The notes under the pieces: generated by a model
The model's database searches: none
Seen by the model: the letters and a program-made list of their open reading frames with translations, nothing else
What the model was told of the DNA's origin: nothing
Made by a program: the position numbers and the translations under genes
DNA from: Diplonema papillatum
Lineage: Eukaryota; Euglenozoa; Diplonemea; Diplonemida; Diplonemidae
Direction of reading: 5' to 3'
Assembly (NCBI GenBank): GCA_030068145.1
Contig: JAPJBO010000736.1
Location: 50,880 to 114,879 of the forward strand
Length of the DNA stretch: 64,000 nt
Shown: positions 8,870 to 64,000 of the stretch, piece by piece
How positions within the stretch are numbered: position 1 is the first letter of the stretch
Layout: every line of letters begins with the position of its first letter

Positions 8870-10040
8870 CCAAAGCGAACCCGAAAAGTTCAGCCAACCA
8901 CACTACGAAAGTACAATCGAATGCTCGTAGTTCTCAGACAATACCGACATTGGCAAACCTATTGCTCGCAGAGCCGAGATGTATTTTGCACTCTCGTCCA
9001 CGGAGCTTTGCCAGTCGGAAGGCAGTTTTGCTCGACGCCTGTTCATCCCACCCAGCTCTTGGCTGAGATCGTAGATCAATTGACAAACGTATCGTCTGCA
9101 TCTGAGCGCCGTGGTTCAGCTGGCACAGTTGGCACGAAGCCGATTGTTGCCCACCGCTTGATAAAAACCTACCAAAACCTACCCGATACCTTGACCTGAA
9201 GCTACAATTGTAAACAGGCCCAACTCCTAACGTCGTTTCGAGCTTGTAAACCCACAAAAGCCTGGGCGTGGTTTGACAGCAGCGTGCAGATGTTTACCCC
9301 CTGGTCGCCGCTAGCCCCGCGCGCTCCCGCGGTTGCGCTTCAGCAACTGTCGACGACCTCCTGTCGTGTGCAGACGAGCCCTGTCCTACACGTGCTCGCA
9401 GCGTGCCCGTCCTCCTTTTTCTTCTTCGCGTGCAGAATCGCAGACAACTAAGCCGCGACGATGCAATGCGTCGTGAATCGACAAGAAGGGACCTTCTAAA
9501 GATACGCTGGATAGAACGCCAAAGCTGAGAAGGATCTTCTAAAGATACGCTGGATAGAACGCCAAAGCTGACGACTTATTTCGGAATGCCCTCCTTCGTT
9601 GCGGCCCCCCTGCAGGCCCAGCGAAAGAAAGAACCTTGGGGGTTGAATGATTCCTGCTGCAAAGTTGCTGTTTGAAACCTGTGTTCTCATTAGAAAGTCC
9701 CATCGAGAACAAGGTATCCATCTTGTAACTTCGCAGACGGGAAGATCGAGGCCGTGTAGGCTACGGGTGTAGGCTACGGGTCCAGACGTTGGAATAGTTT
9801 CTGTTAGCCACCACAAGCGTCTCGTTCTGTCCTCCTGTTTAAGGGAAACGGCTTTATTGTTCCCCGTTCACGGTGGGGTCTTCGTGCTTGGTTTTTTGGG
9901 GAGCATTGGGACGCGAGCCGTCAGACGAGGCGGCCACATACGCGGCGTTCTGCGCGCTGCTACGTTTGGCAAACTGCTTGCTGGTTTGTGTCGATTGCGA
10001 AACCCGCGAAGGCTTTGGTCGGATTTAACTGATATTAAGC

Positions 10041-10235
10041 ATTTATTCGGCAAGATAATTCCCGTTTATTTTGCCGAGGTGTCGGTTTTAGTCCCGAGGG
10101 AGGCCCGAGGGGGGGTTTGCAACCCCGAGCCACGAGCGGAGCGAGTGGCGAGGGGTTGCAAACCCCCCCGAGGGCCTCCCGAGGGACTAAAACCGACACC
10201 GAGGCAAAATTGGCGGAAATTATTGCCGAATAAAT
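10041..10235. mobile_element. Foldback (MITE-like) palindrome of ~195 bp
   Basis: Ends ATTTATTCGGCAA (10041) and TTGCCGAATAAAT (to 10235) are inverted repeats. The inner arms, from GAGGTGTCGGTTTTAGTCCC to GGGACTAAAACCGACACC, are nearly perfect complements through a G/C-rich stretch, and the centre is GCCACGAGCGGAGCGAGTGGC-like. Both strands therefore show the same pseudo-frame. There is no open gene; it looks like a non-autonomous hairpin element. Confidence 0.75.
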
Positions 10236-43095: not shown

Positions 43096-46000
43096 TTAAC
43101 CCAACTCCGACCAAGCACCTACAGGTTAATTTCCACCTTTTCCTATTTTTCATTTTTATAGAGTGCCTTCGCTCTTTTGGGCATTCTGGGGCTGGAATTT
43201 TGCGATTTCGAAGCATATCTTTCCATTGCCGCCCTTGGAAGGCGAAATTTTGACATGATGTTGCACTAGTCTGTCATCGTCTTCTCGCTTATGACCGTCT
43301 CTAATTCGTCGACAACGTTTCACCGCAACCTTGACAATATTTTGTTTTCTCGCGTGGTTTAGATTTCCTTCCTAGGTTGGGCTTGAGCAAAAGAGAAGAA
43401 GAAAGGCGGCAGACGTCATTTTGCGTGCGTTCCGGGGGTAGGGGGTTGGAGTGATGGCGAGATAACGGGCAAGACGCAGGAAATTGAGGTACGGGGCAGG
43501 TGGGCAGTTCACGCAACTACTGGCCACTGCAGTCACTTTCATCAGTAGACTCGGTATACGTCAGACGCACTCCTTTGAGTGTGGGAGGGCGCCCCTGCTT
43601 GCAAGGGCGGCCGCCTCGTTTCTTCAAGCGCTGGGTCCCAGGAGTTTCCGGCTCGTAGTAATGGTGGTTCTTGAGGGTGTGAAACCGGGTAAAACACGGA
43701 GCGGGACACAGAGCCACGCCACATGTTTTGCAGACATATTTCGTCTTGACCAAACGAACATGGCATTTGCACGCAACGCGGGTGTCTGTTTCCAGAATGG
43801 CATGGAACTTGCCATCCAGGCGCGACGGGTGGTCGCTAGCCCGAGGTGTGCGCGTTCCGGGGCTGAAGTCCTCAGTACTGCGGTTGTCAGCAAGTAACCC
43901 GCGGATGAGCTCTTTTCTGAAGTCCTTGAAGGGTAAGGACCCGCGATTCTTACCAAGACGCTTGTACAAGATAAAACTGTTCAACGCAGACACTTCGAGC
44001 AAATAAAAGAAGACTTTCATATACCATCGTTTGCCCTGCATGAATCGTGTCGCCCGGGCAAGGTACTGGTCGCAGCGATCTACCCCCCCCATGTGTTTGT
44101 TGTAAGCAACCACGATGTCTGGCTTACTGACCTTCAACCGCTTTCCCCCCTTGCAGCGACGCTCAAGCTCGGTCATTGTTGTTCCAATGGGGAGTGTTGA
44201 CAACATGCGGACTTCACGCTTGTCAACCCACTCCAAGAACGTGATCGGCGAACTTTGGCGATACTGGCAATGGCCGCGTTTCGGGGCCGCAGCCTTATCC
44301 GCTTGGGATGGGCGGCCGCGCTTCTTTTGGGACTTGCTAAAAAGTGGGATCCCGTTCCGATTTTTGCGGACAGTTCCGGCCGCGTGGAATCCCAAGGTGT
44401 ATAATTTTAGCATGAGGGGAATGCTTGTGTAGTAGTTGTCCATGTACATGTGCCTTCCTGAGTATGCATACAGAGCCGCAGCTGCAAGAAGTTCACGCTC
44501 ACCAACGTTCACGGGGCCAGGGTTAGTATCCGTGTCAATCTTACCGGTATACACTGACGATACCAATGTGTAACCAGTCTGTGACTCAGCCAGAACAAAA
44601 CACTTCAAACCGAATCGATGCCGTTTCATGGGCATGTATTGCTTGAAGCTGACACGACCTTTGTACTTGATGATCGACTCATCAAAGCTAAGTTCTTTAT
44701 CGGGAGCATAGACATCCCGCCATTGGAGAGACACAAGCTGGAAAATATCTCTTATCTTGATGAGTCGGTCCGGGTGTTCCTTCTTTCCACTGAGGGGGTC
44801 TGTGAAGTGCAGCGTCCTGTGAATATCGTGCCACCTTTTCCTGGACATGGTTTCAGAAAAAAACGCGCATTGTTCGATAGGGTCCACGGACCAGTACGAG
44901 TAGAGATCCTGTTTCACGGACAACCCCATCGCGTATGTGACAGCACACCAGCGAAGAAATTCCGCAATATCGGGTGCTTCGTACGAGATACCCTCTTTCC
45001 CTGCAGCATACACACTCATGTGCCCAATGATCTGGGTGACCACCAGGTCGGTGAACATGCATCTGAAGATGTCAGTGGGGGAGGAATCCTCATCAAGGTC
45101 GTAGGACGGATTCGGTCCGGTCTTCTTGGCGTTGAAAGGGAATTCGAGGTTGGGCTCGACTTTGCTGCTCCACGACAAGGACTTGATCGCTGCACCTGCT
45201 GCCTTGACCGCAGCGCTCTCAGTATTCGGTGGGCGGCCTCGCGGTGCTGGGTTTGCGGGGGGCTTCTGTGCCGGTCCTTTTCGTGGTCGGCCGGGGCGCT
45301 TCGGTGCAGGCTTTGCGGAGGGCTTCGGCGCCTGTTCTTTTGGTGGCCGGCCGGGGCGCTTCGGTGCAGGCTTTGCGGAGGACTTCGGCGCCTGTTCTTT
45401 TGGTGGCTCGCCAAAAAAAATGTTCATAAAGTGGCCGAGATCACCGCTCTGAACCCGCGGGTTGGCCAGGAACACGACGTTGGCCGGGTGGGGTCGGTCT
45501 TCGCCTCGCTCGACTGAGCCGGTTCCTCTCAGCACGGCCCAGTTGTACAGCGCTGTGTACACTGTCTCCGGATTGGGCTGGAATCCGATACCGTGTTGGA
45601 GGCAGAAGCTCGATACCTGATAAGTGTCCAGCTCCGGTAAGCGTGCCACACTCCTGCAACGCACGTCGAAATGTTCGCGGGCGAAGCTGAGAATGTTCAA
45701 TGCCGATGGCATCGCAAAACTTCCCTCCATCGCTCGCATGAGTGCGATGTACCCGCACTCCACCCCGCTCTGCTCGTCACGCAGCTGCAGTGTCACACCC
45801 CGGATACCGCCGAACTCACGTCGCGACCGTTGCCTGTCCCAGTTCCCGCAAGAGTCGACCACTGTCACCCGCCCAAGCGCGGTGGCGTCGAGATGATGCA
45901 CTTGTTCGCGCACTGTCCTTCCCGACCTGTTGTTGTCGTCATCGTCATCCTCTTCCTCTTCTTCATCCTCTTCTTCTTCCTCGTCCTCTTCCTCTTCCAC

Positions 46001-46356
46001 CTCTTCTGCTTCCTCGTTGTCCTCTTCTTCTGTCGACCCCACACACTCTATATCCGTGGCCGCCCGCTTCCTTCCAGACATTTTGTACTTTTCACTGCCC
46101 AAGTTCCTGGATTGTTTCGACTGTTGATGACAAGGCATTGAAAAAGCCGGTTTTCCGGGGGTTTCCCCAATCTCGCCACTTGGTTTCAATCGTCATTGCT
46201 GACGAATTTTTGATATTCGAGGGCGGCAATGAAAAGATTTGCTCGAAATGGGTGAATTCCATATTTTTGGGAATTTTTTGGCGCCTCCTGAGCACCCCTA
46301 CAGAAAAATCCAGATTAAACCGGACATATATGTCCGGTTGGTCGGAGTTGGGTTAA
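43096..46356 (-). mobile_element. Complete piggyBac-family DNA transposon
   Basis: Target duplication TTAA is at 43096-43099 and 46353-46356. Perfect 15-bp terminal inverted repeats CCCAACTCCGACCAA (43100-43114) and TTGGTCGGAGTTGGG (46338-46352) bound a 3,253-bp element. An 18-bp palindrome, CCGGACATATATGTCCGG, abuts the right terminal repeat (46320-46337). The single gene is on the minus strand with an uninterrupted frame. TTAA specificity is diagnostic of piggyBac. Intact ends and frame imply recent insertion. Confidence 0.95.
43517..46138 (-). CDS. piggyBac transposase with AT-hooks
   Basis: ~873 residues from ATG 46138 (MPCHQQSKQ); MSGRKRAATD at 46081 is an alternative start. An acidic Glu/Asp-rich N-terminus is followed by Lys/Pro/Ala-rich repeats at ~255-305 with three AT-hook cores (KRPGRPPK, KRPGRPRK, PRGRPP), two of them on an exact 60-bp DNA duplication (45301 and 45361). 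The DDE domain shows the three catalytic Asp: FDESIIKYKG (D486), MYMDNYYTS (D567) and GGVDRCDQYL (D687), with family spacing. The C-terminus is a cysteine/histidine-rich domain (CKCHVRLVKTKYVCKTCG, ~789-826), as in piggyBac end-binding domains. It is longer than the moth enzyme (~594) because of the N-terminal extension. No stop or frameshift is present, so it looks active. The whole gene lies on the strand opposite to its host neighbours. Confidence 0.95.
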   Translation of the reverse strand: MPCHQQSKQSRNLGSEKYKMSGRKRAATDIECVGSTEEEDNEEAEEVEEEEDEEEEEDEEEEEDDDDDNNRSGRTVREQVHHLDATALGRVTVVDSCGNWDRQRSRREFGGIRGVTLQLRDEQSGVECGYIALMRAMEGSFAMPSALNILSFAREHFDVRCRSVARLPELDTYQVSSFCLQHGIGFQPNPETVYTALYNWAVLRGTGSVERGEDRPHPANVVFLANPRVQSGDLGHFMNIFFGEPPKEQAPKSSAKPAPKRPGRPPKEQAPKPSAKPAPKRPGRPRKGPAQKPPANPAPRGRPPNTESAAVKAAGAAIKSLSWSSKVEPNLEFPFNAKKTGPNPSYDLDEDSSPTDIFRCMFTDLVVTQIIGHMSVYAAGKEGISYEAPDIAEFLRWCAVTYAMGLSVKQDLYSYWSVDPIEQCAFFSETMSRKRWHDIHRTLHFTDPLSGKKEHPDRLIKIRDIFQLVSLQWRDVYAPDKELSFDESIIKYKGRVSFKQYMPMKRHRFGLKCFVLAESQTGYTLVSSVYTGKIDTDTNPGPVNVGERELLAAAALYAYSGRHMYMDNYYTSIPLMLKLYTLGFHAAGTVRKNRNGIPLFSKSQKKRGRPSQADKAAAPKRGHCQYRQSSPITFLEWVDKREVRMLSTLPIGTTMTELERRCKGGKRLKVSKPDIVVAYNKHMGGVDRCDQYLARATRFMQGKRWYMKVFFYLLEVSALNSFILYKRLGKNRGSLPFKDFRKELIRGLLADNRSTEDFSPGTRTPRASDHPSRLDGKFHAILETDTRVACKCHVRLVKTKYVCKTCGVALCPAPCFTRFHTLKNHHYYEPETPGTQRLKKRGGRPCKQGRPPTLKGVRLTYTESTDESDCSGQ

Positions 46357-48099: not shown

Positions 48100-51000
48100 A
48101 AAAAAAAAACGCGCTGGATCGGCGGCCGAAGCGCAGGAGGGGAAGCGAGGGGTGATCACAATCCCGAGCGGGGAAGGGGCCACTCAAGCGAGCAACTCAT
48201 GCCGGTCGCGTCTGGGCAACGCGTCCGGTTTGAGGGGGACTGGGGGTGCAGGAGGAGCCGCCACCCCCACTGTGAGCTTGAGGGGCCCCCGACCTGTGAA
48301 GGTGACTGTGAGTCCTGAGCCCACCCGAGGGCGTCAAGCAGCGGATCCTGGCAGCCAGTCAGCCAGGGCAGGGCGGTGCAGAGGGTGGTAGACCCCAAGA
48401 AAGTGAAAGAGGGCCAGGACGGACGGAACGGCCAAGGAGTCAGCGGCACAAGATGCCAACAAGGACCCCCCCTTGCCGGGGGAGGGAAACCAGGAGCGAG
48501 CGGGAGGTCAGGCAACCCCAAGTCACAGGAACAAATCAAGGGGGACAAAATCTGACTTGCCACCTCCTCGCGGTGTCCCCTGGAAACGTGTTTTTCGAAA
48601 CGCGGCCAAGGCAAGCAGTACCTTTGCTGTGGGTGAAAGCCCCTTACTTCGTATCTGGCGTCCGAGCTGCGCACCTACCCTTCCTGGGCGTAAAAGATCC
48701 TGCCCCAAGCTGCCCAGCAGGAACGGGGGGGGCGGTGCAAAGAGGCACCTTCCAGGTGAGCCTTGCCAAGTTTGACTCCCTTGTGGCTTGACAAACCGTT
48801 TCCTTACCCGAAGGCAGGTTCTGCCCCCTTGTGGCGGAGAGGTTGAAAATCGAAGGCTCGAAGGCAGAAGCGGCTTGACAAACCGTTTCCGTTTCCAGAA
48901 GGCTGGACTCCCCAGTGGGTCTTTCTTGCTGCGAAGGCGAGGTTGCTTTGGTGCTTGGCTTTTCTTGCGGGGCCAAAGTTGTGAAATTTCCTCTGTCTGT
49001 GCAAGAAAGGGTTGCTTGTGGCGAAGCGGCGGCCTTTCCAGGCTCCCAGCCGAACCCCCAGAAAGTGAAAAGAAGGGGTTCCCCAGTGCCGTGTGGCAGG
49101 CGCCGGTTCAATGTGAACCGGTGCGGTCAAAAAAACCGCGCCTGTCAGTGATGTGGTTGTGCCATTTGCTGTTTGTGTTAAAAAGAATTCGAAACACGGG
49201 GAACACCGGCCAGGCACCAGGTACACGTCTGGAAACAGTACGGCGGTGCATTTTTATTCCCAGGAGACTTGCTCCCAAGAGACTTTCCTTCACTCCAAGC
49301 GCCGATTCGCAAAATGACATGGCCGCTTGGTGAAGGAACTTCTCTTTGGGTGTAAGATCTTCCCCGCGGGTGGACGCGGAGGAAGAGGGTTCTTCTCGTA
49401 TCCCACGAGAAAATTGAAAAGGAACTAGCCCAACACACCCCTAGCCCCATTTGTTTCCCGTACGATACTCCCAGTTGAAAAAAAAAACTGATCAAAAAAA
49501 AAAAAACTCTCCCAGGAGTACGAGGCCCAGAAGGCGCAGATGACGCGCGAGGGGAGGGAGCGAGAGGGAATCACCCTCGAAGAGGCGAGGCAGTGGCCTC
49601 GCAGATCCCTGCAACTGCAGGTCGGGGAGAGGGAGGGGAGGAGGGACGTCGCCTTCTTGGAGGCGGCGGAGGCCACAGAGGCCCTCGCCCAAATGAAAGA
49701 GGACAAGGAGCGCCGCCTCGCCCTCGCCCTCGCCGCCCTCGCCATCAAAAAAGATCCCCCCGGACCCCCGGGCTGCGACGTCCTCATGGGGTCGCAGCGG
49801 CCAGAGGCCGACCCCCCCCAACCCGGCGAACACAAGGACCCGGGGAGCGACGCGCCCATGGGGGAGGCCCAGGGGCCGGGCCCTGGTGCCGAGAACCCCG
49901 CCAAGCGGCTGAAGACCTCAGGCGGCTGAGCGGGCTCGGCCGCTCGGCGGCGAGCGCGGCACCCCCAGAATGGACACCCAACAGGAAGGGGAAGGGGGGA
50001 CACACACACAGGTCCGCAACGAGATCGCTGGGGCGCGGTGGGGACGACCTCACCGTGGATGGTTGCGTCGAGCCGCACCCGGGGCCCGCCGCGCCCCCCC
50101 CACCGGCCCCAGCCGCCCCGCCGCAGGTCTGCCTCTGCCCAAGGCGCTACAGCTGGCGGCCACGGGGAGCGTAACCGGGTGGCTCCGGTTACACTCCTTT
50201 GCCACCCTCGTCCTCTTCAAACCGCGCAGAGGGGGGAGGAAGAAGGTGGCGGCCGCCCTGAGGAGTCGCTGCCACCTTTGGGCGCACGGCAGGTTCGGCG
50301 AGCTCTGGACGGAGGCGCAGGAAGTGGCGGCAGGCAGGAGGCAGGCGGGCGTGCCCCTGGTCCGGTTCCTCGTGATGGACGAGGACGACAACCAGATCGG
50401 GCGGTTCGTCGGGCTGGCGACAGACGTGGAGGACGCCGACCAGCTGGATGCGAAGACCGTCCAGCAGGTCATTCGCAGGACGAAGGCCCGATGGTTCGGG
50501 AAGGCGGTGGCCGCGCTCTCGGCGGCGAAGGTGGCCCCAGTGAACGAGGAGACACTGGGGGTCATGCGGGAAAAACACCCACAGGCGCCAGAACCCCCCC
50601 TCCCCCCAATACCACCACAGGCGAACGCGGAGATCGACGTCTCTTGGGGGATCGTCATTAAGACGCTGAGGGCGCTCCCCCGAGGGACGGCACCAGGGCC
50701 GTCAGGGCTGTCGGCGCAGCACCTGCTGGACCTGGTGAGCCCGGGCTCGCCGATAAGGGCCCCTCTGGTGGCGGTGATCGCGCGGATCGCCACCGGGAGC
50801 CTCCCGGACGAGGCCCGGCCGCACGGGTTTGGGGCCAGGCTAGTGGCCCTCGAGAAGAAGGACGGGGGTCTCCGGCCCATCGCCTGTGGAGAGGTCCTGA
50901 GGAGGATGGCGGCCAAGATCTTGGCCAGGGACAAGTCCGTGGTGCAGGCGGTCAAGCCCATCCTGGAGAGGTGCGGCCAGACCGGGGTCGGGATGAAGTC

Positions 51001-51418
51001 CGGCGCCGACGCCATGGTCTGCGCGATGCGGTGCGTGGGAGAGGCGTACCGGCGCGACGGCCAAGGGCGGGGGATCCTGAAGGTGGACCTGCAGAACGCC
51101 TTTAACAAGGTGAGCAGGGAGGCCATCTTGCAGGCAGTGGCCGAGAGCGCCCCAGGCCTCCTGCCATACGCGATAGCGGCGTACGGGCGCAGGTCACGGC
51201 TTTCCTTCGGGGAGGAAGTGGTCTGGTCCGAGTGCGGAGTGCAACAGGGGGACCCACTCGGGCCGTTGTTCTTCTGTCTCGTGTTGGAGAAGGTCCTGCG
51301 GAGAGTGGACTTGTCCCTGGCCGAGCGGCTGCCACCCTTGGGGGCCGATGATATTCCGCAGGGGGCCCTGGCCCCGGCCCAGCCCCAACAACAACAACAA
51401 CAACAACAACAACCACAG
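48100..51418 (+). mobile_element. Non-LTR retrotransposon (LINE), 3' part replaced by satellite
   Basis: A GC-rich block with LINE-like organisation on the + strand: a degenerate basic/Pro-rich frame with several stops (48152-48775), a short charged ORF (49540-49929) and a reverse-transcriptase ORF (from 49970). There are no long terminal repeats. The left boundary is uncertain. At its right end the coding sequence passes through (CAA)9 (51386-51412) into the octamer satellite, so the usual 3' end (rest of RT, any nuclease, 3' UTR) is missing. Confidence 0.7.
49540..49929 (+). CDS. LINE ORF1-like charged protein
   Basis: A 129-codon frame rich in Arg, Glu, Ala and Pro. Its first part (QVGEREGRRDVAFLEAAEAT) has coiled-coil character, followed by a Pro/Gly-rich tail. 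It ends 40 bp before the reverse-transcriptase ORF. No zinc knuckle is visible. Its placement suggests the end of an ORF1; function not shown. Confidence 0.4.
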   Translation: MTREGREREGITLEEARQWPRRSLQLQVGEREGRRDVAFLEAAEATEALAQMKEDKERRLALALAALAIKKDPPGPPGCDVLMGSQRPEADPPQPGEHKDPGSDAPMGEAQGPGPGAENPAKRLKTSGG

Positions 51419-51613
51419 ACCCGCAAACCCGCAAACCCGCAAACCCGCAAACCCGCAAACCCGCAAACCCGCAAACCCGCAAACCCGCAAACCCGCAAAC
51501 CCGCAAACCCGCAAACCCGCAAACCCGCAAACCCGCAAACCCGCAAACCCGCAAACCCGCAAACCCGCAAACCCGCAAACCCGCAAACCCGCAAACCCGC
51601 AAACCCGCACTAG
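49970..51613 (+). CDS. Non-LTR reverse transcriptase fused to satellite-encoded tail
   Basis: 547 codons, of which the last ~65 (after ~51418) are satellite translation (repeating RKPANPQT). N-terminal ~200 residues have no endonuclease motif I recognise. The RT core contains RGTAPGPSGLSAQHL (~240), ARLVALEKKDGGLRPIACGE (motifs 1-2), the motif A segment LKVDLQNAFNKVSR with the catalytic Asp ~373, and the motif B segment GVQQGDPLGPLFF (~425). About 33 residues later GADD (~458-461) falls where motif C, usually (F/Y)xDD, is expected; the aromatic residue is replaced by Gly. Immediately afterwards the frame becomes Gln9 and then satellite, so thumb and downstream domains are absent. The copy is therefore non-autonomous. 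Confidence 0.75.
   Translation: MDTQQEGEGGTHTQVRNEIAGARWGRPHRGWLRRAAPGARRAPPTGPSRPAAGLPLPKALQLAATGSVTGWLRLHSFATLVLFKPRRGGRKKVAAALRSRCHLWAHGRFGELWTEAQEVAAGRRQAGVPLVRFLVMDEDDNQIGRFVGLATDVEDADQLDAKTVQQVIRRTKARWFGKAVAALSAAKVAPVNEETLGVMREKHPQAPEPPLPPIPPQANAEIDVSWGIVIKTLRALPRGTAPGPSGLSAQHLLDLVSPGSPIRAPLVAVIARIATGSLPDEARPHGFGARLVALEKKDGGLRPIACGEVLRRMAAKILARDKSVVQAVKPILERCGQTGVGMKSGADAMVCAMRCVGEAYRRDGQGRGILKVDLQNAFNKVSREAILQAVAESAPGLLPYAIAAYGRRSRLSFGEEVVWSECGVQQGDPLGPLFFCLVLEKVLRRVDLSLAERLPPLGADDIPQGALAPAQPQQQQQQQQQPQTRKPANPQTRKPANPQTRKPANPQTRKPANPQTRKPANPQTRKPANPQTRKPANPQTRKPANPH
51419..51610. repeat. Octamer satellite array 1, (CCCGCAAA)n
   Basis: About 24 nearly perfect 8-bp units, C-rich strand on +. 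It starts directly after (CAA)9 of the LINE and ends at CCGCACTAGAAATGAGC. Confidence 0.95.
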
Positions 51614-53640
51614 AAATGAGCACATGGTCGAAGCACGTTAGGAGAGTTGGGTTTGGTGTGGTTTCCGTAAACACGGACATATTCTGAGCACGTGCCGAGG
51701 ACCTCCAAGACCAAGAATCGCTGGACACTGTGCCGTAGAACATTTTTACCACTATATGAATCATAGACTCTCCGAAACCAGGCGCCGACACCTGATTCGG
51801 GTCCATACGTCAGGTCTGGGCTCACTGGGTATGTGGGTTCCTGTTTAGAGACCAAGGAACGCGCTTGGGTTCCCCAAAGGAAGGTTCTAAGGACCCCCAA
51901 GGCATGAATCACTGTACCCTGTGCTGTGGGACGTTTGAATAACTATACAAGCCGTAGACTTTCCAAATACAGAGAACCACACTTGATCCGGGTCCAGATG
52001 TCAAATCCGGACTCATTTGGTGTGTGGGTTTCTGTGAATAGCCCAACGAATGCGTGTGGGTTTCTCCAAAGAAGGTTCCAAGGGCCCCAAGGCCATGAAT
52101 CACTGTACCGTGTGCTGTGGGACGTCTGAATCACTATACGGGTCTTCGACTGTCCAAATGCGGAAACCCACACCTGATCTGGATCCAGATGTCAAATCCG
52201 GACTCATTTGGTATGTGGGTTTCTGTGTATAGCCAAAGCAACGCGTGCGGGTTTCTCGAAAGAAGGTTCCAAGGATCCCAAGCCCGCAAACCCATTCTCG
52301 ATTCGGCCCATGATTGATAATAAATCCCCTCTCAGAATTCCTGGTGAAAATTGCTGAGGGAAGGAATGTTGAAGCATTCTCTTGGCCAGAAAACTGTCAA
52401 ATATTTTACCCCACAGACGAGTTGCAATCAGAGCGCAAATCTGGGTTCATTGGTGGTATAATTATTGAATTTTGGACAGAATTCTAAGAAGAATATTACC
52501 CTACCTAGAGCCAAGGTTGGGGATGATTCAACCCGTGAATGAAAATGAATTATTCCTGGTGAAAATGGCTGGGGGTGGAAATGTTGAAGCATTCTGTTGG
52601 CCAGAAAACTGTCAAAACTTTTACCCCACGGACGAGTTGCAATCAGAGCGCAAATCTGGGTTCATTGGTGGTATAATTCTTGAATTTTGGACAGAATTTC
52701 AAAAAGAATATTACCCTACCAAAAGCCAAGGTTGGGGATGATTCAACCCATGAATGAAAATGAATCATTCCTGGTGAAAATGGCTGGGGGTGGAAATGTT
52801 GAAGCATTCTGTGGGACAGAAAACTGTCAAAACTTTTACCCCACGGACGAGTTGCAATCAGAGCGCAAATCTGGGTTCATTGGTGGTATAATTCTTGAAT
52901 TTTGGACAGAATTTCAAAAAGAATATTACCCTACCAAAAGCCAAGGTTGGGGATGATTCAACCCATGAATGAAAATGAATCATTCCTGGTGAAAATGGCT
53001 GGGGGTGGAAATGTTGAAGCATTCTGTGGGACAGAAAACTGTCAAAACTTTTACCCCACGGACGAGTTGCAATCAGAGCGCAAATCTGGGTTCATTGGTG
53101 GTATAATTCTTGAATTTTGGACAGAATTTTAAAAAGAATATTACCCTACCAAAAGCCAAGGTTGGGGATGATTCAACCCATGAATGAAAATGAATCATTC
53201 CTGGTGAAAATGGCTGGGGGTGGAAATGTTGAAGCATTCTGGGGGACAGAAAACTTTCAAAACTTTTACCCCACATATGGGATGAATCAGGATCGAAAAT
53301 CTGGGTTCATGAGTGGCATAACTTTTTGGGTTTGGAAGGTTTTTAAAATAATTAAGACGTGGTACCAAAAAAGTCCGCCCAAAGGTAGGGGGTGAGGTTG
53401 ATTCAACCAAGGATTGATAATGAATCCCCTCCCAAAATTCCTGGTGAAAATGGCTTGGGGAAGGAATGTTGAAGCATTCTGTGGGCCGAAAAACTGTCAA
53501 AACCTTTACCCCACATATGGGATGAATCAGGATCGAAAATCTGGGTTCATTGGTGGCATAATTTTCCGAATTTGGAAGGTTTATAAAATAACTAAGACGT
53601 GGTACCAAAATTACCCGCAATTCCGCAAACTGTAGGGAGT
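51611..53640. repeat. Higher-order satellite block 1 (leader type A)
   Basis: Leader ACTAGAAATGAGCACATGG, then GTGTGGTTTCCG (type A), about three ~192-bp units keyed on AATCACTG (~51906, ~52098), then five to six units of a second repeat. That second family has ATTCAACCC at 52526, 52741, 52956 and 53171, an exact 215-bp period. The block ends near CCGCAATTCCGCAAACTGTAGGGAG. Confidence 0.9.
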
Positions 53641-53752
53641 AACCCGCAAACCCGCAAACCCGCAAACCCGCAAACCCGCAAACCCGCAAACCCGCAAACC
53701 CGCAAACCCGCAAACCCGCAAACCCGCAAACCCGCAAACCCGCAAACCCGCA
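53641..53752. repeat. Octamer satellite array 2
   Basis: 14 perfect CCCGCAAA units, bounded by GTAGGGAGT on the left and CACTAGAAATGAGC on the right. Confidence 0.95.
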
Positions 53753-55676
53753 CTAGAAATGAGCACATGGTCGAAGCACGTTAGGAGAGTTGGGTTTGGT
53801 TTTGGTTCTGTTTATACAGACATATTCTAAGCACATGCCGAGGACCTTCAAAACCCAGAATCACTGTGAACTGTGCTGTGGGACATTTGAATCCCTATGC
53901 GAGCCATAGACTGTCCGAAAAAAGAGGCCCACACCTGATTCGCATCCAGATGTCAAATATGGACTCATTCGCTATGTGGGTGTCTGTTTATAGCCCGGGA
54001 AATACGTGCGGGTTCCTCCAGAGAAGGTGCCAAAGACCCCCAAGACCGAGAATCACTGTGAACTGTGCTGTGGGACATTTGAACATTGATATGAAACACA
54101 GGCTTGCCAAACCCAGAAACCAACACCTGATCTGGATCCAGATGTCAAATCCGGACTCATTCGGTATGTGGTTCTCTATGTACAGCCCAAGGAACGCGTG
54201 TAAGTTTCCCAAAGGAAGGTTCCAAGGACCCCCAAGGCCATGAATCACTGTACCCTATGCTGTGGGGCGTTTGAATCACTATACGAGCCGTAGACTGTCC
54301 AAATCCAGAAACCCTTACCTGATATGGATCCAGATGTCACATCCGGACCCATTTGGTATGTGGGTTCCTATGTAGAGACCAAGGAACGCGTTTGGGTTCC
54401 CCAAAGGAAGGTTCTAAGGACCCCCAAGGCATGAATCACTGTACCCTGTGCTGTGGGACATTTGAATCACTATACAAGCCGTAGACTGTCCAAATCCGGA
54501 AACCCACACTTGATCCGGAACCAGATGCCAAACCCGGACTCATTTGGTATGCGGGTTTCTGTGTATAGCCCAGGGAACGCGTGTGGGTTTCTCAAAACAA
54601 GGTTCCAAGGGCCCCAAGTCCATGAATCACTGTACCCTGTGCTGTGGGACGTTTGAATCATTATACGGGCCATCGACTGTCTGAATCTGGAAACACACAC
54701 CTAATCTGGATCCAGATGTCAAATCCGGACTCATTTGGTATGTGGGTTTCTGTGTATAGCCCAGGGAATGCGTGCGGGTTTCTCCAAAGAAGGTGCCAAG
54801 GACCCCTGAGACCCAGAATCACTGTGAACTGTGCTGTGGGACACCTGAATCACTACGCGACCCATAGACTGTCCGAATCCAGAAACCCACACCTGATTCG
54901 GATCCAGATGTCGAATCCGGACTCATTTGGTATGTGGGTCTCTGTGTATAGCCCAAGGAATGCGTGCGGGTTTCTCCTAAGAAGGTGTCAAGGAACCCCA
55001 AGACCCAGAATCACTGTGAACTGTGCTGTGGGACACCTGAATCACTACGCGACCCATAGACTGTCCAAATTCAGAAACCCACACCTGATTTGGATCCAGA
55101 TGTCGAATCCGGACTCAATTTGGTATGTGGGTTTCTGTGTATAGCCCAAAGAACGCGTGTGGGTTTCTCAAAACAAGGTTCCAAGGAACCCAAGCCCACA
55201 AACCCATTCTTGATTCGGCCTGTGATTGATAATGAATCCCCTCTGAGAATTCCTGGTGAAAATGGCTGGGGGGGGGATTGTTTTCGCATTTTGTCAGTCA
55301 GAAAACTGTCAAATCTTTTACCCCACAGACACATTTAATTTAGAGCGAAAATCTGGGTTCATTGGTGGTATAATTTCCTGGTTTTGGGAATATTTCCCAA
55401 AAATATAAGACCCTACTGGGGATGAGGTTGGGGTTGATTCAATCCTATGATTGATAATGAATCCCCTCCAAAATTCCTGGTGAAAATGGCTGGGGGAAGG
55501 ATTGTTTTTGCATTCTGAAGGTCAGAAAACTGTCAAACCTTTGACCCCACAGACGCGTTTAAATCAGAGCGAAAATCTGGGTTCATTGGTGGTATAATTT
55601 TCTGATTTTGGAAATTTTTTAAAATAATTAAAGCCTGAACAAAAAATTACCCGCAATTCCGCAAAAGGTAGGGAGT
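53753..55676. repeat. Higher-order satellite block 2 (leader type B)
   Basis: The leader continues GTTTTGGTTCTG (type B). AATCACTG marks are at 53859, 54051, 54243, 54434, 54624, 54817 and 55009, so the period is 190-193 bp. Two longer A/T-rich repeats (GATTGATAATGAATCCCCTC) follow before the array-entry motif. The first ~1 kb matches block 3 at an offset of 2,130-2,131 bp. Confidence 0.9.
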
Positions 55677-55883
55677 AACCCGCAAACCCGCAAACCCGCA
55701 AACCCGCAAACCCGCAAACCCGCAAACCCGCAAACCCGCAAACCCGCAAACCCGAAACCCGCAAACCCGCAAACCCGCAAACCCGCAAACCCGCAAACCC
55801 GCAAACCCGCAAACCCGCAAACCCGCAAACCCGCAAACCCGCAAACCCGCAAACCCGCAAACCCGCAAACCCGCAAACCCGCA
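55677..55883. repeat. Octamer satellite array 3
   Basis: About 26 CCCGCAAA units with one truncated unit near 55753. The same left (GTAGGGAGTAA) and right (CACTAGAAATG) boundaries as the other arrays. Confidence 0.95.
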
Positions 55884-57855
55884 CTAGAAATGAGCACATG
55901 GTCGAAGCACGTTAGGAGAGTTGGGTTTGGTTTTGGTTCTGTTTATACAGACATATTCTAAGCACATGCCGAGGACCTTGAAAACCCAGAATCACTGTGA
56001 ACTGTGCTGTGAGACATTTGAATCCCTATGCGAGCCATAGACTGTCCGAAAAAAGAGGCCCACACCTGATTCGCATCCAGATGTCAAATATGGACTCATT
56101 CGCTATGTGGGTGTCTGTTTATAGCCCGGGAGTACGTGCGGGTTCCTCCAGAGAAGGTGCCAAAGACCCCCAAGACCGAGAATCACTGTGAACTGTGCTG
56201 TGGGACATTTGAACATTGATATGAAACACAGGCTTGCCAAACCCAGAAACCAACACCTGATCTGGATCCAGATGTCGAATCCGGACTCATTCGGTATGTG
56301 GTTCTCTATGTACAGCCCAAGGAACGCGTGTAAGTTTCCCAAAGGAAGGTTCCAAGGACCCCCAAGGCGATGAATCACTGTACCCTATGCTGTGGGGCGT
56401 TTGAATCACTATACGAGCCGTAGACTGTCCAAATCCAGAAACCCTTACCTGATATGGATCCAGATGTCGCATCCGGACTCATTTGGTATGTGGGTTCCTA
56501 TGTGGAGACCAAGGAACGCGTTTGGGTTCCCCAAAGGAAGGTTCTAAGGACCCCCAAGGCATGAATCACTGTACCCTGTGCTGTGGGACATTTGAATCAC
56601 TATACAAGCCGTAGACTGTCCAAATCCGGAAACCCACACTTGATCCGGAACCAGATGCCAAACCCGGACTCATTTGGTATGCGGGTTTCTGTGTATAGCC
56701 CAGGGAACGCGTGTGGGTTTCTCAAAACAAGGTTCCAAGGGCCCCAAGTCCATGAATCACTGTACCCTGTGCTGTGGGACGTTTGAATCATTATACGGGC
56801 CATCGACTGTCTGAATCTGGAAACACACACCTAATCTGGATCCAGATGTCAAATCCGGACTCATTTGGTATGTGGGTTTCTGTGTATAGCCCAAGGAATG
56901 CGTGCGGGTTTCTCCTAAGAAGGTGTCAAGGACCCCCAAGACCCAGAATCACTGTGAACTGTGCTGTGGGACACCTGAATCACTACGCGGCCCATAGACT
57001 GTCCAAATTCAGAAACCCACACCTGATTCAGATCCAGATGTCGAATCCGGACTCATTTGGTATGTGGGTTTCTGTGTATAGTCCAGGAAACGCGAGTGGG
57101 TTTCTCAAAACAAGGTTCCAAGGATCCCAAGCCCACAAACCCATTCTTGATTCGGCCTGTGATTGATAATGAATCCCCTCTGAGAATTCCTGGTGAAAAT
57201 GGCTGGGGGGAGGATTGTTTTCGCATTTTGTCAGTCAGAAAACTGTCAAATCTTTTACCCCACAGACACATTTAATTCAGAGCGAAAATCTGGGTTCATT
57301 GGTGGTATAATTTCCTGGTTTTGGAAAGTTTTTAAAATAATTAAAGCCTGTGACAAAAATTCTGGGGATCAAGGTTGGGGTTGATTCAACCTATGATTGA
57401 TAATGAATCCCCTCCAAAATTCCTGGTGAAAATGGCTGGGGGAAGGACTGCTTTTGCATTCTGAAGGTCAGAAAACTGTCAAACCTTTGACCCCACAGAC
57501 GCGTTTAAATCAGAGCGAAAATCTGGGTTCATTGGTGGTATAATTTTCTGATTTTGGAAAGTTTTTAAAATAATTAAAGCCTGTGACAAAAATTCTGGGG
57601 ATCAAGGTTGGGGTTGATTCAACCTATGATTGATAATGAATCCCCTCCAAAATTCCTGGTGAAAATGGCTGGGGGAAGGACTGCTTTTGCATTCTGAAGG
57701 TCAGAAAACTGTCAAACCTTTGACCCCACAGACGCGTTTAAATCAGAGCGAAAATCTGGGTTCATTGGTGGTATAATTTTCTGATTTTGGAAAGTTTTTA
57801 AAATAATTAAAGCCTGTGACAAAAATTACCCGCAATTCCGCAAAAGGTAGGGAGT
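55884..57855. repeat. Higher-order satellite block 3 (leader type B)
   Basis: Leader B, six ~192-bp units and three ~233-bp units (ATTCAACCTATG at 57384 and 57617). Nearly identical to 61509-63480 with a constant offset of 5,625 bp; I noticed only a couple of substitutions (for example near 56585 and 57444). Confidence 0.92.
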
Positions 57856-58172
57856 AACCCGCAAACCCGCAAACCCGCAAACCCGCAAACCCGCAAACCC
57901 GCAAACCCGCAAACCCGCAAACCCGCAAACCCGCAAACCCGCAAACCCGCAAACCCGCAAACCCGCAAACCGCAAACCCGCAAACCCCCAAACCGCAAAC
58001 CCGCAAACCCGCAAACCCGCAAACCCGCAAACCCGCAAACCCGCAAACCCGCAAACCCGCAAACCCGCAAACCCGCAAACCCGCAAACCCGCAAACCGCA
58101 AACCCGCAAACCCGCAAACCCGCAAACCCGCAAACCCGCAAACCCGCAAACCCGCAAACCCGCAAACCCGCA
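57856..58172. repeat. Octamer satellite array 4
   Basis: About 40 CCCGCAAA units, a few with lost bases (near 57970-57995 and 58095). Confidence 0.95.
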
Positions 58173-60848
58173 CTAGAAATGAGCACATGGTCGAAGCACG
58201 TTAGGAGAGTTGGGTTTGGTGTGGTTTCCGTAAACACGGACATATTCTGAGCACGTGCCGAGGACCTCCAAGACCAAGAATCGCTGGACACTGTGCCGTA
58301 GAACATTTTTACCACTATATGAATCATAGACTCTCCGAAACCAGGCGCCGACACCTGATTCGGGTCCATACGTCAGGTCTGGGCTCACTGGGTATGTTGG
58401 TTTCTGTGTATAGCTCAGGGAATGCGTGTGGGTTTCTTCAAAGAAGGTGCCAAGGACCCCCAAGACCCAGAATCACTGTGGCCTGTGCTGTGGGACACCT
58501 GAATCACTATGCGACCCATAGACTGTTCAAATCCAGAAACTCACACCTGATTCAGATCCGGATGTCAAATCCGGACTCATTTGGTATGTGGGCTTCTGTA
58601 TATAGCCCAAGGAATGCGTGCGGGTTTCTCCAAAGAAGGTGCCAAGGACCCCCGAGACCCAGAATCACTGTGAACTGTGCTGTGGGACACCTGAATCACT
58701 ACGCGACCCATAGACTGTCCAAATCCAGAAACCCACACCTGATTCGGATCCAGATGTCCAATCTAGACTCATTTGGTATGTGGGTTTCTGTGTATAGCCC
58801 AAGGAATGCGTGCGGGTTTCTCCAAAGAAGGTGCCAAGGACCCCCGAGACCCAGAATCACTGTGAACTGTGCTGTGGGACACCTGAATCACTATGCGACC
58901 CATAGACTGTCCAAATCCAGAAACCCACACCTGATTCGGATCCAGATGTCGAATCCGGACTCATTTGGTATGTGGGTTTCTGTGTATAGCCCAAGGAATG
59001 CGTGTGGGTTTCTCCAAAGAAGGTGCCAAGGACCCCCAAGACCCAGAATCACTGTGAACTGTGCTGTGGGACTTTTGAATCACCTTACGAGCCATGAACT
59101 GTCCAAATCCAGAAACCCACACCTGATCTGAATCCAGATGTCAAATCTGGACTCATTGGGTATGTGGGTTTCTGTGTATGAACCGAGGACTGGGTGTGGG
59201 TTTTTCCAGAGAAGGTGCCAAGGACCCCCAAGACCCAGAATCACTGTGAACTGTGCTGTGGGACTTTTGAATCATTTACGAGCCATAGACTGTCCAAATC
59301 CAAAAGCCCACACCTGATTTGAATCCAAATGTCGAATCTGGACTCATTGGGTATGTGGGTTTCTGTGTATAGCCCAGGGAATGCGTGTGGGTTTTTCCAG
59401 AGAAGGTGCCAAGGACCCCCAAGACCCAGAATCACTGTGAACTGTGCTGTGGGACTTTTGAATCACCTACGAGCCATGGACTGTCCAAATCCAGAAACCC
59501 ACACCTGATTTGAATCCAGATGTCAAATCCGGACTCATTTGGTATGTGGGTTTCTGTGTATAGCCCAAGGAACGCGTGTGGGCTTCTCAGAACAAGGTTC
59601 GAAGGACCCCCAAGGCCATGAATCACTGTACCCTGTGCTATGGGACGTTTGAATCACTATACGAGCCGTATACTGTCAAAATCCAGAAGCCCACACCTGA
59701 TTCGGATCCAGATGTCAAATCCGGACTCATTTGGTATGTGGGTTTTTGTGTGTAGCCCAACGAATGCGTGTGGGTTTCTCCAAAAAAGTTTCCAAAGACC
59801 CCCAAGACCCAGAATCACTGTGAACTGTGCTGTGGGACTTTTGAATCACCTTACGAGCCATGCACTGTCCAAAAACAGAAACCCACGCCTGATCTGAATC
59901 CAGATGTCAAATCCGGACTCATTCGGTATGTGGGTTTCTGTGTATAGCCTAGGGAATGCGTGTGGGTTTTTCCAAAGAAGGTGCCAAGGACCCCCAAGAC
60001 CCAGAATCACTGTGAACTGTGCTGTGGGACTTTTGAATCACCTTACGAGCCACGGACTGTCCAAATCCAGAAACCCACACCTGATTTGAATCCAGATGTC
60101 AAATCTGGACTCATTGGGTATGTGGGTTTCTGTGTATAGCCCAAGGAACACACGTGGGTCTCTCAAAACAAGGTTCGAAGGACCCCCAAGGCCATGAATC
60201 ACTGTACCGTGTGCTGTGGGACGTTTGAATCATTATACCGGCTGTCGACGGTCCAAATCCAAAAACCCACACCTGATTCGGATCCAGATGCCAGATCTGG
60301 AATCATTTGGTATGTGGGTTTCTGTGTATAGCCCAAGGTTTCCAAGGACCCCAAGCCAGCAAATCCATTCTTGATTCGACCTGTGATTGATAAGGAATCC
60401 CCAAATTCCTGGTGAAAATGGCTTGGGGAAGGAATGTTGAAGCATTCTGGAGGCCAAGAAACTGTCAAAACGTTAAACCCACATATGGGATGAATCAGGA
60501 TCGAAAATCTGGCTTCATTAGTGGCATAATTTTCTGGGTTTGGAAGGTTTTTTAAATAATTAAGACGTGGTACCAAAAGAGTCCGCCAAAAGGTAGGGGG
60601 TGGGGTTGATTCAACGAAGGATTGATAATGAATCCCCTCCCAAAATTCCTGGTGAAAATGGCTTGGGGAAGGAATGTTGAAGCATTCTGTGGGCCGAAAG
60701 ACTGTCAAAACGTTAAACCCACATATGGGATGAATCAGGATCGAAAATCTGGGTTCATTGGTGGCATAATTTCCTGAATTTGGAAGGTTTATAAAATAAC
60801 TAAGACGTGGTAACAAAAATACCCGCAATTCCGCAAAAGGTAGGGAGT
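58173..60848. repeat. Higher-order satellite block 4 (leader type A)
   Basis: Leader A matches that of block 1 for about 220 bp. Ten ~192-bp units follow, with AATCACTG at 58471, 58663, 58855, 59047, 59239, 59430, 59621, 59813, 60005 and 60197, then two longer repeats with ACATATGGGATGAATCAGG. It is the longest block. Confidence 0.92.
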
Positions 60849-61508
60849 AACCCGCAAACCCGCAAACCCGCAAACCCGCAAACCCGCAAACCCGCAAACC
60901 CGCAAACCCGCAAACCCGCAAACCCGCAAACCCGCAAACCCGCAAACCCGCAAACCCGCAAACCCGCAAACCCGCAAACCCGCAAACCCGCAAACCCGCA
61001 AACCCGCAACCCGCAAACCCGCAAACCCGCAAACCGCAAACCCGCAACCCGCAAACCCGCAAACCCGCAAACCCGCAAACCCGCAAACCCGCAAACCCGC
61101 AAACCCGCAAACCCGCAAACCCGCAAACCCGCAAACCGCAAACCGCAAACCCGCAAACCGCAAAACCCGCAAACCCGCAAACCCGCAAACCCGCAAACCC
61201 GCAAACCCGCAAACCCGCAAACCCGCAAACCCGCAAACCCGCAAACCCGCAAACCCGCAAAACCGCAAACCCGCAAACCCGCAAACCCGCAAACCCGCAA
61301 ACCCGCAACCCGCCAACCCGCAAACCCGCAAACCCGAAAACCCGCAAACCCGCAAACCCGCAAACCCGCAAACCCGCAAACCCGCAAACCCGCAAACCCG
61401 CAAAACAGCAAAACCGCAAAACAGAAACCCGCAAACCCGCAAACCCGCAAACCCGCATAATATCCGCAAACCCGCAAACCCGCAAACCCGCAAACCCGCA
61501 AACCCGCA
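60849..61508. repeat. Octamer satellite array 5 (long, degenerate)
   Basis: About 82 units, with many single-base losses or gains (CGCAACC, CGCAAAACC, CGAAAACC) and an interruption, CATAATAT, near 61456. More diverged than arrays 1-3. Confidence 0.95.
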
Positions 61509-63480
61509 CTAGAAATGAGCACATGGTCGAAGCACGTTAGGAGAGTTGGGTTTGGTTTTGGTTCTGTTTATACAGACATATTCTAAGCACATGCCGAGGA
61601 CCTTGAAAACCCAGAATCACTGTGAACTGTGCTGTGAGACATTTGAATCCCTATGCGAGCCATAGACTGTCCGAAAAAAGAGGCCCACACCTGATTCGCA
61701 TCCAGATGTCAAATATGGACTCATTCGCTATGTGGGTGTCTGTTTATAGCCCGGGAGTACGTGCGGGTTCCTCCAGAGAAGGTGCCAAAGACCCCCAAGA
61801 CCGAGAATCACTGTGAACTGTGCTGTGGGACATTTGAACATTGATATGAAACACAGGCTTGCCAAACCCAGAAACCAACACCTGATCTGGATCCAGATGT
61901 CGAATCCGGACTCATTCGGTATGTGGTTCTCTATGTACAGCCCAAGGAACGCGTGTAAGTTTCCCAAAGGAAGGTTCCAAGGACCCCCAAGGCGATGAAT
62001 CACTGTACCCTATGCTGTGGGGCGTTTGAATCACTATACGAGCCGTAGACTGTCCAAATCCAGAAACCCTTACCTGATATGGATCCAGATGTCGCATCCG
62101 GACTCATTTGGTATGTGGGTTCCTATGTGGAGACCAAGGAACGCGTTTGGGTTCCCCAAAGGAAGGTTCTAAGGACCCCCAAGGCATGAATCACTGTACC
62201 CTGTGCTGTTGGACATTTGAATCACTATACAAGCCGTAGACTGTCCAAATCCGGAAACCCACACTTGATCCGGAACCAGATGCCAAACCCGGACTCATTT
62301 GGTATGCGGGTTTCTGTGTATAGCCCAGGGAACGCGTGTGGGTTTCTCAAAACAAGGTTCCAAGGGCCCCAAGTCCATGAATCACTGTACCCTGTGCTGT
62401 GGGACGTTTGAATCATTATACGGGCCATCGACTGTCTGAATCTGGAAACACACACCTAATCTGGATCCAGATGTCAAATCCGGACTCATTTGGTATGTGG
62501 GTTTCTGTGTATAGCCCAAGGAATGCGTGCGGGTTTCTCCTAAGAAGGTGTCAAGGACCCCCAAGACCCAGAATCACTGTGAACTGTGCTGTGGGACACC
62601 TGAATCACTACGCGGCCCATAGACTGTCCAAATTCAGAAACCCACACCTGATTCAGATCCAGATGTCGAATCCGGACTCATTTGGTATGTGGGTTTCTGT
62701 GTATAGTCCAGGAAACGCGAGTGGGTTTCTCAAAACAAGGTTCCAAGGATCCCAAGCCCACAAACCCATTCTTGATTCGGCCTGTGATTGATAATGAATC
62801 CCCTCTGAGAATTCCTGGTGAAAATGGCTGGGGGGAGGATTGTTTTCGCATTTTGTCAGTCAGAAAACTGTCAAATCTTTTACCCCACAGACACATTTAA
62901 TTCAGAGCGAAAATCTGGGTTCATTGGTGGTATAATTTCCTGGTTTTGGAAAGTTTTTAAAATAATTAAAGCCTGTGACAAAAATTCTGGGGATCAAGGT
63001 TGGGGTTGATTCAACCTATGATTGATAATGAATCCCCTCCAAAATTCCTGGTGAAAATGGCTGGGGGAAGGATTGCTTTTGCATTCTGAAGGTCAGAAAA
63101 CTGTCAAACCTTTGACCCCACAGACGCGTTTAAATCAGAGCGAAAATCTGGGTTCATTGGTGGTATAATTTTCTGATTTTGGAAAGTTTTTAAAATAATT
63201 AAAGCCTGTGACAAAAATTCTGGGGATCAAGGTTGGGGTTGATTCAACCTATGATTGATAATGAATCCCCTCCAAAATTCCTGGTGAAAATGGCTGGGGG
63301 AAGGACTGCTTTTGCATTCTGAAGGTCAGAAAACTGTCAAACCTTTGACCCCACAGACGCGTTTAAATCAGAGCGAAAATCTGGGTTCATTGGTGGTATA
63401 ATTTTCTGATTTTGGAAAGTTTTTAAAATAATTAAAGCCTGTGACAAAAATTACCCGCAATTCCGCAAAAGGTAGGGAGT
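61509..63480. repeat. Higher-order satellite block 5 (leader type B)
   Basis: A near-identical duplicate of block 3 (offset 5,625 bp, same unit number and order). Confidence 0.92.
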
Positions 63481-64000
63481 AACCCGCAAACCCGCAAACC
63501 CGAACCCGCAAACCCGCAAACCCGCAAACCCGCAAACCCGCAAACCCGCAAACCCGCAAACCCGCAAACCCGCAAACCCGCAAACCCGCAAACCCGCAAA
63601 CCCGCAACCGCAAACCCGCAAACCCGCAAACCCGCAAACCCGCAAACCCGCAAACCCGCAAACCCGCAACCCGCAAACCCGCAACCCCAAACCCGCAAAC
63701 CGCAAACCCGCAAACCCGGAAAACCGCAAACCCGCAAACCCGCAAACCCCCAAACCCGCAAACCCGCAAACCCGCAAACCCGCAAACCCGCAAACCGCAA
63801 ACCCGCAAACCCGAAAACCCGCAACCCGCAAACCCGCAAACCCGCAAAACCGCAAACCCGCAAACCCGCAAACCCGCAAACCCGCAAACCCGCAAACCCG
63901 CAAACCCGCAAACCCGCAAACCGCAAACCCGCAAACCCGCAAACCCGCAACCCGCAAACCCGCAAACCCGCAAACCCGCCAACCCGCAAACCCGCAAACC
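63481..64000. repeat. Octamer satellite array 6, runs off the window
   Basis: At least 65 CCCGCAAA units, the most degenerate array (CCGAACCCG, CAACCCCAAA, CGGAAAACC variants). The window ends inside it, so its length is unknown. Confidence 0.95.

Follow-up and report, generated by a model that had tools for sequence, protein, structure and literature searches.

The window analysed here is a stretch of 64,000 bp of Diplonema papillatum DNA (assembly GCA_030068145.1, contig JAPJBO010000736.1, hereafter C736) that covers C736 bases 50,880-114,879, and its position 64,000 is the last base of that 114,879-bp contig. Its distal part is an alternation of six arrays of an octamer, (CCCGCAAA)n, with five blocks of longer repeats (Table 1), and we propose, with a probability of about 0.6, that it represents unidirectional chromosome-end arrays of Helitron-derived elements standing in octamer DNA. 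The window thus forms the outer end of its contig and probably lies near a chromosome end. The two-level order of arrays and blocks described in a first-pass annotation was recovered both with Tandem Repeats Finder (TRF) and by counting exact units, and the identity of the octamer and the position of its C-rich strand on the plus strand are as stated there. The three repeat families, which that annotation had regarded as unrelated and merely locked in one order, behave instead as one mobile unit, whose ends in other contigs also frame units that carry a Rep/helicase gene or the genes for spliced leader (SL) RNA, 5S and U2.

Each block is bounded by two short sequences. The leader, CTAGAAATGAGCACATGGTCGAAGC, follows directly on five octamer arrays, that is, on all except the array at the contig end. 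The entry motif, CCGCAATTCCGCAAA, stands directly before the last five of the six arrays; it is exact as first quoted at four of these five places, and the first is a variant that reads ...AAACTGTAGGGAG. Array 1 has no entry and is preceded by a long interspersed nuclear element (LINE) fragment and (CAA)n instead. The distance from leader to entry is 1,899-2,651 bp, which at its lower end falls short of the ~2-2.7 kb first given for the blocks. Exact period-8 runs reach 183 bases in the window and never exceed 10 in 20 shuffles of its single bases; TRF periods inside the blocks are 191/192 and 215/233 bp. Identity between blocks 3 and 5 is 99.9% over 1,947 bp, and between blocks 2 and 3 it is 97% over 1,258 bp. 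In four of the five blocks a counterpart of the terminal 60 bases is present within the block's own 215-233-bp run (scores 27-32, with 100 shuffles reaching at most 13-16), the match spanning the entry motif in two blocks and being limited to the first 32 bases in the other two, while the terminal 60 bases of block 2, ahead of array 3, have no match in its run above shuffles. Hence, the second repeat run at least partly duplicates the element's own end. A conserved RNA fold in the leader was considered and rejected (z-score 0.36; 121 of 200 shuffles fold equally well).

The connection to Helitrons comes from the DNA beyond the leader in other contigs. In C9, an open frame beyond leader A (L011:7440-9998) contains a Rep domain (PF14214, 1.1e-30), and a 1,317-codon open frame in a C1879 unit (L057:3-3953) combines a PIF1 helicase (PF05970, 9e-52) with the end of a Rep domain (PF14214, 5e-9). 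The combination of Rep (HUH) and PIF1-type helicase by which an autonomous Helitron is recognized is therefore present in L011 and L057. The Rep/helicase has 837 related proteins at E <= 0.001; among the 120 matches listed, the best is 48% identical, in eukaryotic contigs, and plant Helitron proteins are 31-33% identical. Contigs C93, C761 and C552 terminate in the Rep stretch of C9 at 98.6-99.4% identity, C907 matches it at 71%, and C372 and C391 match the C1879 Rep/helicase gene at 77-81%. In these six contigs and in C9 the Rep gene points outward, the same way as the leader. C907 also has an apparent unit with a C9-type leader at 71361, 192-bp repeats at 80312-80704 and an entry at 81956, 10.6 kb after the leader. 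Through the links in C9 and C907 the window blocks share their ends with Rep/helicase units, and on this comparison they appear to belong, without genes of their own, to a Helitron-derived family. The loci fetched from the assembly also contain the 39-base sequence that we take to be the Diplonema spliced-leader exon.

The octamer meets leaders and entries in a common phase. In the fetched loci, the tract ends exactly at CCCGCA| before leader A in 31 of 32 arrays, the exception being an extra C interruption, and before leader B in all four; after the entry it starts at |AACCCGC in 18 of 18 (15 of type A and 3 of two other types). The phase at leader D on C317 is CCCGCA^AA too. Together the six and the two bases make up one intact octamer, which is most simply explained by insertion at CCCGCA^AA (T|T on the opposite strand) with no target duplication. 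Helitrons insert between two bases (A|T or T|T) and do not duplicate their target. The elements are placed as if they had entered between the octamer's A's in the same duplication-free way, which holds only if the octamer is the target and not part of the element, as we infer it to be.

Elsewhere in the fetched loci, 17 octamer tracts have leader A or B on one side and unrelated or broken sequence on the other, and at the joints with the latter the phase is variable: nine tracts begin at CCC, one has 1 base in common with the octamer unit and seven have 3-6. The joints are not all independent, as two have their context in common and broken repeats form some of the flanks. They resemble repeat addition onto broken ends, and octamer tracts were presumably laid on such ends before elements entered them. 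The same varied inner joints, with their nine CCC starts and seven cases of 3-6 matching bases, would also be expected of HeT-A- or Zepp-like retro-arrays, in which an RNA with (TTTGCGGG)n as its 3' tail is reverse-transcribed onto ends, the tail lying centromere-ward and the 5' end outward. The single orientation, the head-to-tail chains and a tail of variable length on the inner side agree with this. A HeT-A-like array was our first choice and was dropped once Rep/helicase sequence turned up beyond the leader. It stays among the rivals as an improbable one: the units examined, few of them in full, showed no reverse transcriptase or gag coding, the coding sequence found is Rep/helicase, the exact 6 + 2 phase at both ends suits insertion better, and the LINE of the window lies outside array 1. 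The octamer as the tail of that adjoining LINE was rejected, the LINE being truncated before the array.

Tracts with a leader C, found in the interior of C1 (L014), C7 (L013) and C12 (L016), lie outside the common CCCGCA^AA phase. They mix CCCGCAAA, CCCGCATA, CCCGAA and CCCTAA units, have another shared flank and may be end repeats that are old or have diverged. The open frame L017:1246-3228, immediately inside a leader B tract, encodes a 2OG-Fe(II) oxygenase domain (8e-12) and is perhaps part of a LINE.

The location and polarity of the leaders were assessed across the assembly (271,365,524 bases in 2,910 contigs). Leader A occurs at 131 places, leader B at 616 and leader D at 61, the search patterns for B and D including the octamer edge, so that only octamer-joined copies of these were found. 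Polarity was scored for 48 of 128 compiled A places (on contigs of at least 92 kb), the first 100 of the 616 B places and 27 of the 61 D places, with most contig sizes interpolated by rank from 59 known ones. Within 60 kb of a contig end lie 155 of the 175 scored leaders, 148 of them outward and 7 inward. Of the 80 contigs with near-end leaders, 74 have outward leaders only, 4 inward only and 2 both; among contigs with at least two near-end leaders, 33 of 36 are wholly outward. This polarity indicates unidirectional chromosome-end arrays, and the uniform orientation near ends that characterizes HeT-A-type arrays is seen on those 74 of 80 contigs with contig ends as a proxy for chromosome ends. 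In location and polarity, then, the octamer deserves the name telomere-like that it was first given. A scaffold in reverse orientation, proposed at that time, does not account for the polarity, as left and right contig ends alike show the C-rich strand outward, and the octamer is not spread evenly over the assembly, which would have spoken against a telomere-like repeat; leaders concentrate near contig ends. Entry B is unusable as an end marker because it recurs every ~170-226 bp in a tandem run (745 places, 119 of them followed by octamer), and the octamer was not found in viral contigs. To an interior satellite, for example a centromeric one, we give hardly any credence: tandem higher-order repeats and the interior copies on C8, C91, C105, C173 and C447 would suit it, but the outward polarity on 74 of 80 contigs would not.

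Several observations weigh against chromosome-end arrays of Helitron descent. The leaders on C69, C150, C717 and C790 point inward, those on C4 and C28 point both ways, and 20 of the 175 lie more than 60 kb inside their contigs (C8, C82, C91, C105, C173, C294, C447; one on C65; the inner ends of long chains on C32, C140 and C180). Short octamer tracts of opposite polarity stand near the right ends of C27 (599756-599787) and C71 (458220-458259). Contig ends need not equal chromosome ends, and since a leader marks one end of a unit, single-leader contigs would appear outward if the assembly broke inside elements; leaders B and D and the multi-leader contigs were added for this reason, and the multi-leader contigs should escape the bias. 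As for descent, the Rep gene in C1879 is opposite to the leader direction, and the window's own blocks have no Rep gene. Canonical Helitron termini are a 5' TC and a 3' CTRR, with a hairpin ~10 bases before the latter. No TC start or TC...CTRR termini are present on the coding strand here, family A has no terminal hairpin (those in leader A and entry A are at most 5 bp), and in families A and B no 8-base inverted word is common to leader and entry. The sense strand of family A begins CTAG and finishes GAGT, and its reverse strand finishes CTAG followed by T. Palindromes occur in families B and D only, that of D being a 14-bp hairpin at the very end of the leader. Of the features of Helentrons and HINEs, satellite-like repeats are present and subterminal inverted repeats are lacking in families A and B. 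Finally, the strand of the octamer that points outward is the C-rich one, whereas telomerase-type repeats have the G-rich strand outward; in known telomeres the G-rich strand runs 5'-3' toward the chromosome end, and the orientation here is the reverse.

This orientation bears directly on the idea that CCCGCAAA is simply a telomerase repeat of the ordinary kind, the blocks being subtelomeric satellites like any others. The near-end location, the uniform polarity and the healing-like joints are all in agreement with it. The assembly-wide search called for in the first-pass annotation located the octamer and returned no three-unit TTAGGG, TTTAGGG or TTTTAGGG repeat, its 4 pattern matches being AGGGTTG units, a result that also favours the octamer as the telomerase product. 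A looser telomere pattern gave 175 matches versus 83 for a control; the matches are short, with no TTAGGG-type array among the 100 listed. The 20 longest contigs have no telomere-type repeat at any of their 40 ends. C9 terminates in 192/215-bp repeats, and C736, C22 and C790 terminate in octamer, with the C-rich strand outward in all three. The left end of C790 (1-13903; L040/L041/L132) consists of ~10 kb of octamer, another point in favour of a telomerase repeat, followed by an inverted pair of broken units. Octamer was found in all three samples over these ~10 kb (1-500, 5501-5548 and ~9137-10096), it is joined to a broken 233-bp repeat, and no minus-strand leader is among the places listed there. 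This end looks like the result of breakage, fusion and repeat addition. With an outward-pointing 3' strand that is C-rich and with Rep/helicase-bearing relatives of the units, we regard an ordinary telomerase repeat as very improbable; a telomerase that made the octamer would use an RNA template such as UUUGCGGGUUU or CCCGCAAACCC. In a more radical scheme there is no G-rich telomerase telomere at all. The ends would be (CCCGCAAA)n, their C-rich 3' strand would be extended by rolling-circle copying of octamer-bearing Helitron circles, and a DNA transposon would thus maintain the ends, with SL RNA, 5S and U2 genes riding along. The strand extended in this way is the Rep-coding strand in seven of eight contigs. 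The scheme is speculative and we consider it unlikely.

Chains of units were traced from 83 entries (77 from the main search and 6 added). A leader lies within 1.5 kb outward of 71 entries, and six entries are 0.05-0.83 kb from a contig end (C736, C514, C1555, C1782, C1862 and C2771). Of the others, that on C317 leads into an element bearing a terminal hairpin of 14 bp, that on C2852 into 192-bp repeats, and those on C907 and C514 to a leader 1.7-2.6 kb farther. No entry among the 83 was seen joined to other, non-octamer DNA, chain ends at C2036 and C1607 being unsettled, and since 17 tracts do meet such DNA, chains start on other sequence and are not seen ending in it. The chain on C1782 has nine leaders spaced 2.1-2.7 kb. 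On C514, leaders at 134049, 141203 and 148357 mark two unit periods of exactly 7,154 bp, either a recent duplication or an assembly repeat.

Such chains could also arise at scattered loci, by rolling-circle concatenation or unequal exchange, if the octamer were the elements' own terminal microsatellite and the units appeared at contig ends because long identical repeats halt assembly. The octamer is attached to all leaders A, B and D, nine of the 17 tracts on other sequence begin exactly at CCC, and unit periods are exact, as in blocks 3 and 5 and in two C1804 units that are identical over 4,177 bp. Some copies are interior, and microsatellites of 3-8 bases can occur in Helentron-type elements (PMC7492417). 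However, broken interior chains predict as many inward as outward contigs, and the multi-leader contigs divide 33 to 3. An entry beside non-octamer DNA was not seen among the 83, with two unresolved, and no leader was seen at the long octamer tract of C790. An octamer that belongs to the elements is therefore possible but, in our judgement, rather unlikely.

For chromosome-end arrays of Helitron-derived elements, which we favour, we propose the following. Each block would be a non-autonomous rolling-circle element with the leader as one terminus and the entry as the other. The 192-bp and 215-233-bp repeats would be satellite-like cargo, and part of the latter would have arisen by duplication of the element's terminal region. 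The elements would stand head to tail and in one orientation in (CCCGCAAA)n, joined at CCCGCA^AA. Octamer tracts would mark chromosome ends, for which we infer that contig ends stand, or healed breaks, and would serve as the landing site of the elements, which presumably transpose by rolling circle. Inserted elements may then multiply by unequal exchange or rolling-circle concatenation, and gene-less copies may gather satellite-like cargo. The octamer could be made by telomerase, carried by the elements or copied from circles, and any role of the arrays in telomere maintenance is hypothetical.

Element arrays at chromosome ends are already known from retrotransposons. SART/TRAS, GilM/GilT, Zepp and MoTeR1 stand in short telomere-type repeats in the same orientation, and all are retrotransposons with canonical strand polarity. 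These are named as telomere-invading retrotransposons in a paper that also describes the head-to-tail, single-orientation arrays of Drosophila HeT-A/TART/TAHRE at chromosome ends (PMC10088271). The arrangement is like that found here, but HeT-A/TART/TAHRE are retrotransposons with poly(A) centromere-ward and without telomerase, whereas Rep/helicase elements and an octamer are found here. Bdelloid rotifer terminons are likewise giant composite telomere elements, head to tail with short telomeric stretches and some with Rep genes; unlike the units examined here, in which none was seen, they are built on a Penelope-like reverse transcriptase (PMC6431247). In anatomy, the units come close to the oyster Cg_HINE/Helentron non-autonomous elements (PMC7492417), described as two flanking modules around satellite-like tandem repeats in one or, exceptionally, two clusters in consecutive order, with a preference for insertion at TT without target duplication and a microsatellite of mostly 4 and up to 8 bases. 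Satellite-like repeats between two flanks, T|T insertion without duplication and a short microsatellite are common to both. Cg_HINE elements are dispersed and have the microsatellite within the left flank, whereas here the octamer lies outside leader and entry and the units form one-way chains near contig ends; family A, in addition, is without the subterminal inverted repeats or terminal palindrome. The anatomy is thus close to that of satellite-carrying Helentron derivatives (PMC7492417) and the arrangement close to that of telomeric retrotransposon arrays (PMC10088271, PMC6431247). No description of chromosome-end Helitron arrays came up in a limited literature search, and a text search found no paper containing CCCGCAAACCCGCAAA; the six-letter TTTGCGGG was too common to be informative as a query.

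The genome of D. papillatum has been described as ~280 Mb in hundreds of chromosomes, with bands of 1.1-1.8 Mb in pulsed-field gel electrophoresis, and as containing a dispersed repeat of ~20 kb that is made up of some eight tandem motifs of 2.5 kb (PMC10161547). In unit size and number this repeat agrees with chains such as that on C1782 and is probably the same thing, though the passages that describe it mention no octamer, Helitron origin or end polarity. If the arrays are what we propose, rolling-circle DNA transposons in repeats of reversed polarity would provide a second route to element-built chromosome ends. End upkeep without a G-rich telomerase product could then be put to the test in Paradiplonema, of which tagged and transgenic lines have been described (PMC11633173). 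The SL RNA, 5S and U2 genes may ride on chromosome-end elements, and their presence in same-ended units would explain the spread and homogeneity of these essential arrays.

Table 1. Arrays, blocks and inner flank in the distal part of the window (C736; window positions).
Feature	Position	Strand	Remarks
LINE fragment with reverse transcriptase domain	49913..51379	+	PF00078, E 3.3e-9 on open frame; truncated before array 1; inner flank, outside unit
(CAA)n joining LINE fragment to array 1	51386..51417	+	TRF
Octamer array 1	51419..51609	+	TRF 23.9 copies; 23 exact units; abuts broken LINE sequence; no entry motif
Leader 1, ~58 bp, common to units of differing content	51610..51667	+	
192-bp repeat run, block 1, approximate limits	51690..52282	+	TRF 51788-52282 plus sequence
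215-bp repeat run, block 1, approximate end	52337..53614	+	TRF 52337-53321, then 2 diverged copies
Entry 1, distal end of block 1	53615..53640	+	
Octamer array 2	53641..53752	+	TRF 14 copies; 13 exact units
Block 2: leader, 192-bp run, 233-type repeats	53753..55650	+	192-bp run TRF 53841-55198
Entry 2	55651..55676	+	
Octamer array 3	55677..55883	+	TRF 26 copies; 24 exact units
Block 3: leader, 192-bp run, 233-bp run	55884..57829	+	192-bp run TRF 55989-57135; 233-bp run 57147-57827
Entry 3	57830..57855	+	
Octamer array 4	57856..58172	+	TRF 40 copies; 35 exact units
Block 4: leader, 192-bp run, 215/233-type repeats	58173..60822	+	192-bp run TRF 58255-60338
Entry 4	60823..60848	+	
Octamer array 5	60849..61508	+	TRF 83 copies; 67 exact units
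Block 5: leader, 192-bp run, 233-bp run	61509..63454	+	192-bp run TRF 61614-62760; 233-bp run 62772-63452
Entry 5	63455..63480	+	
Octamer array 6, truncated by end of C736	63481..64000	+	TRF 66.5 copies; 49 exact units

Farther inside the window, positions 7538-42657 are an ordinary gene-rich stretch with class 3 lipase, M48 peptidase, SCO1, ENTH and Cox11 frames. Apart from itself, the SCO1-type protein matches first six EukProt transcripts, one bearing the label Rhum_, which we read as the diplonemid Rhynchopus humris, and three ENA proteins, followed by those of trypanosomatids and other kinetoplastids. On the minus strand at 43520-46192 there is an intact transposase-type frame of 891 amino acids (DDE_Tnp_1_7, 3.8e-66), which is presumably piggyBac-like.

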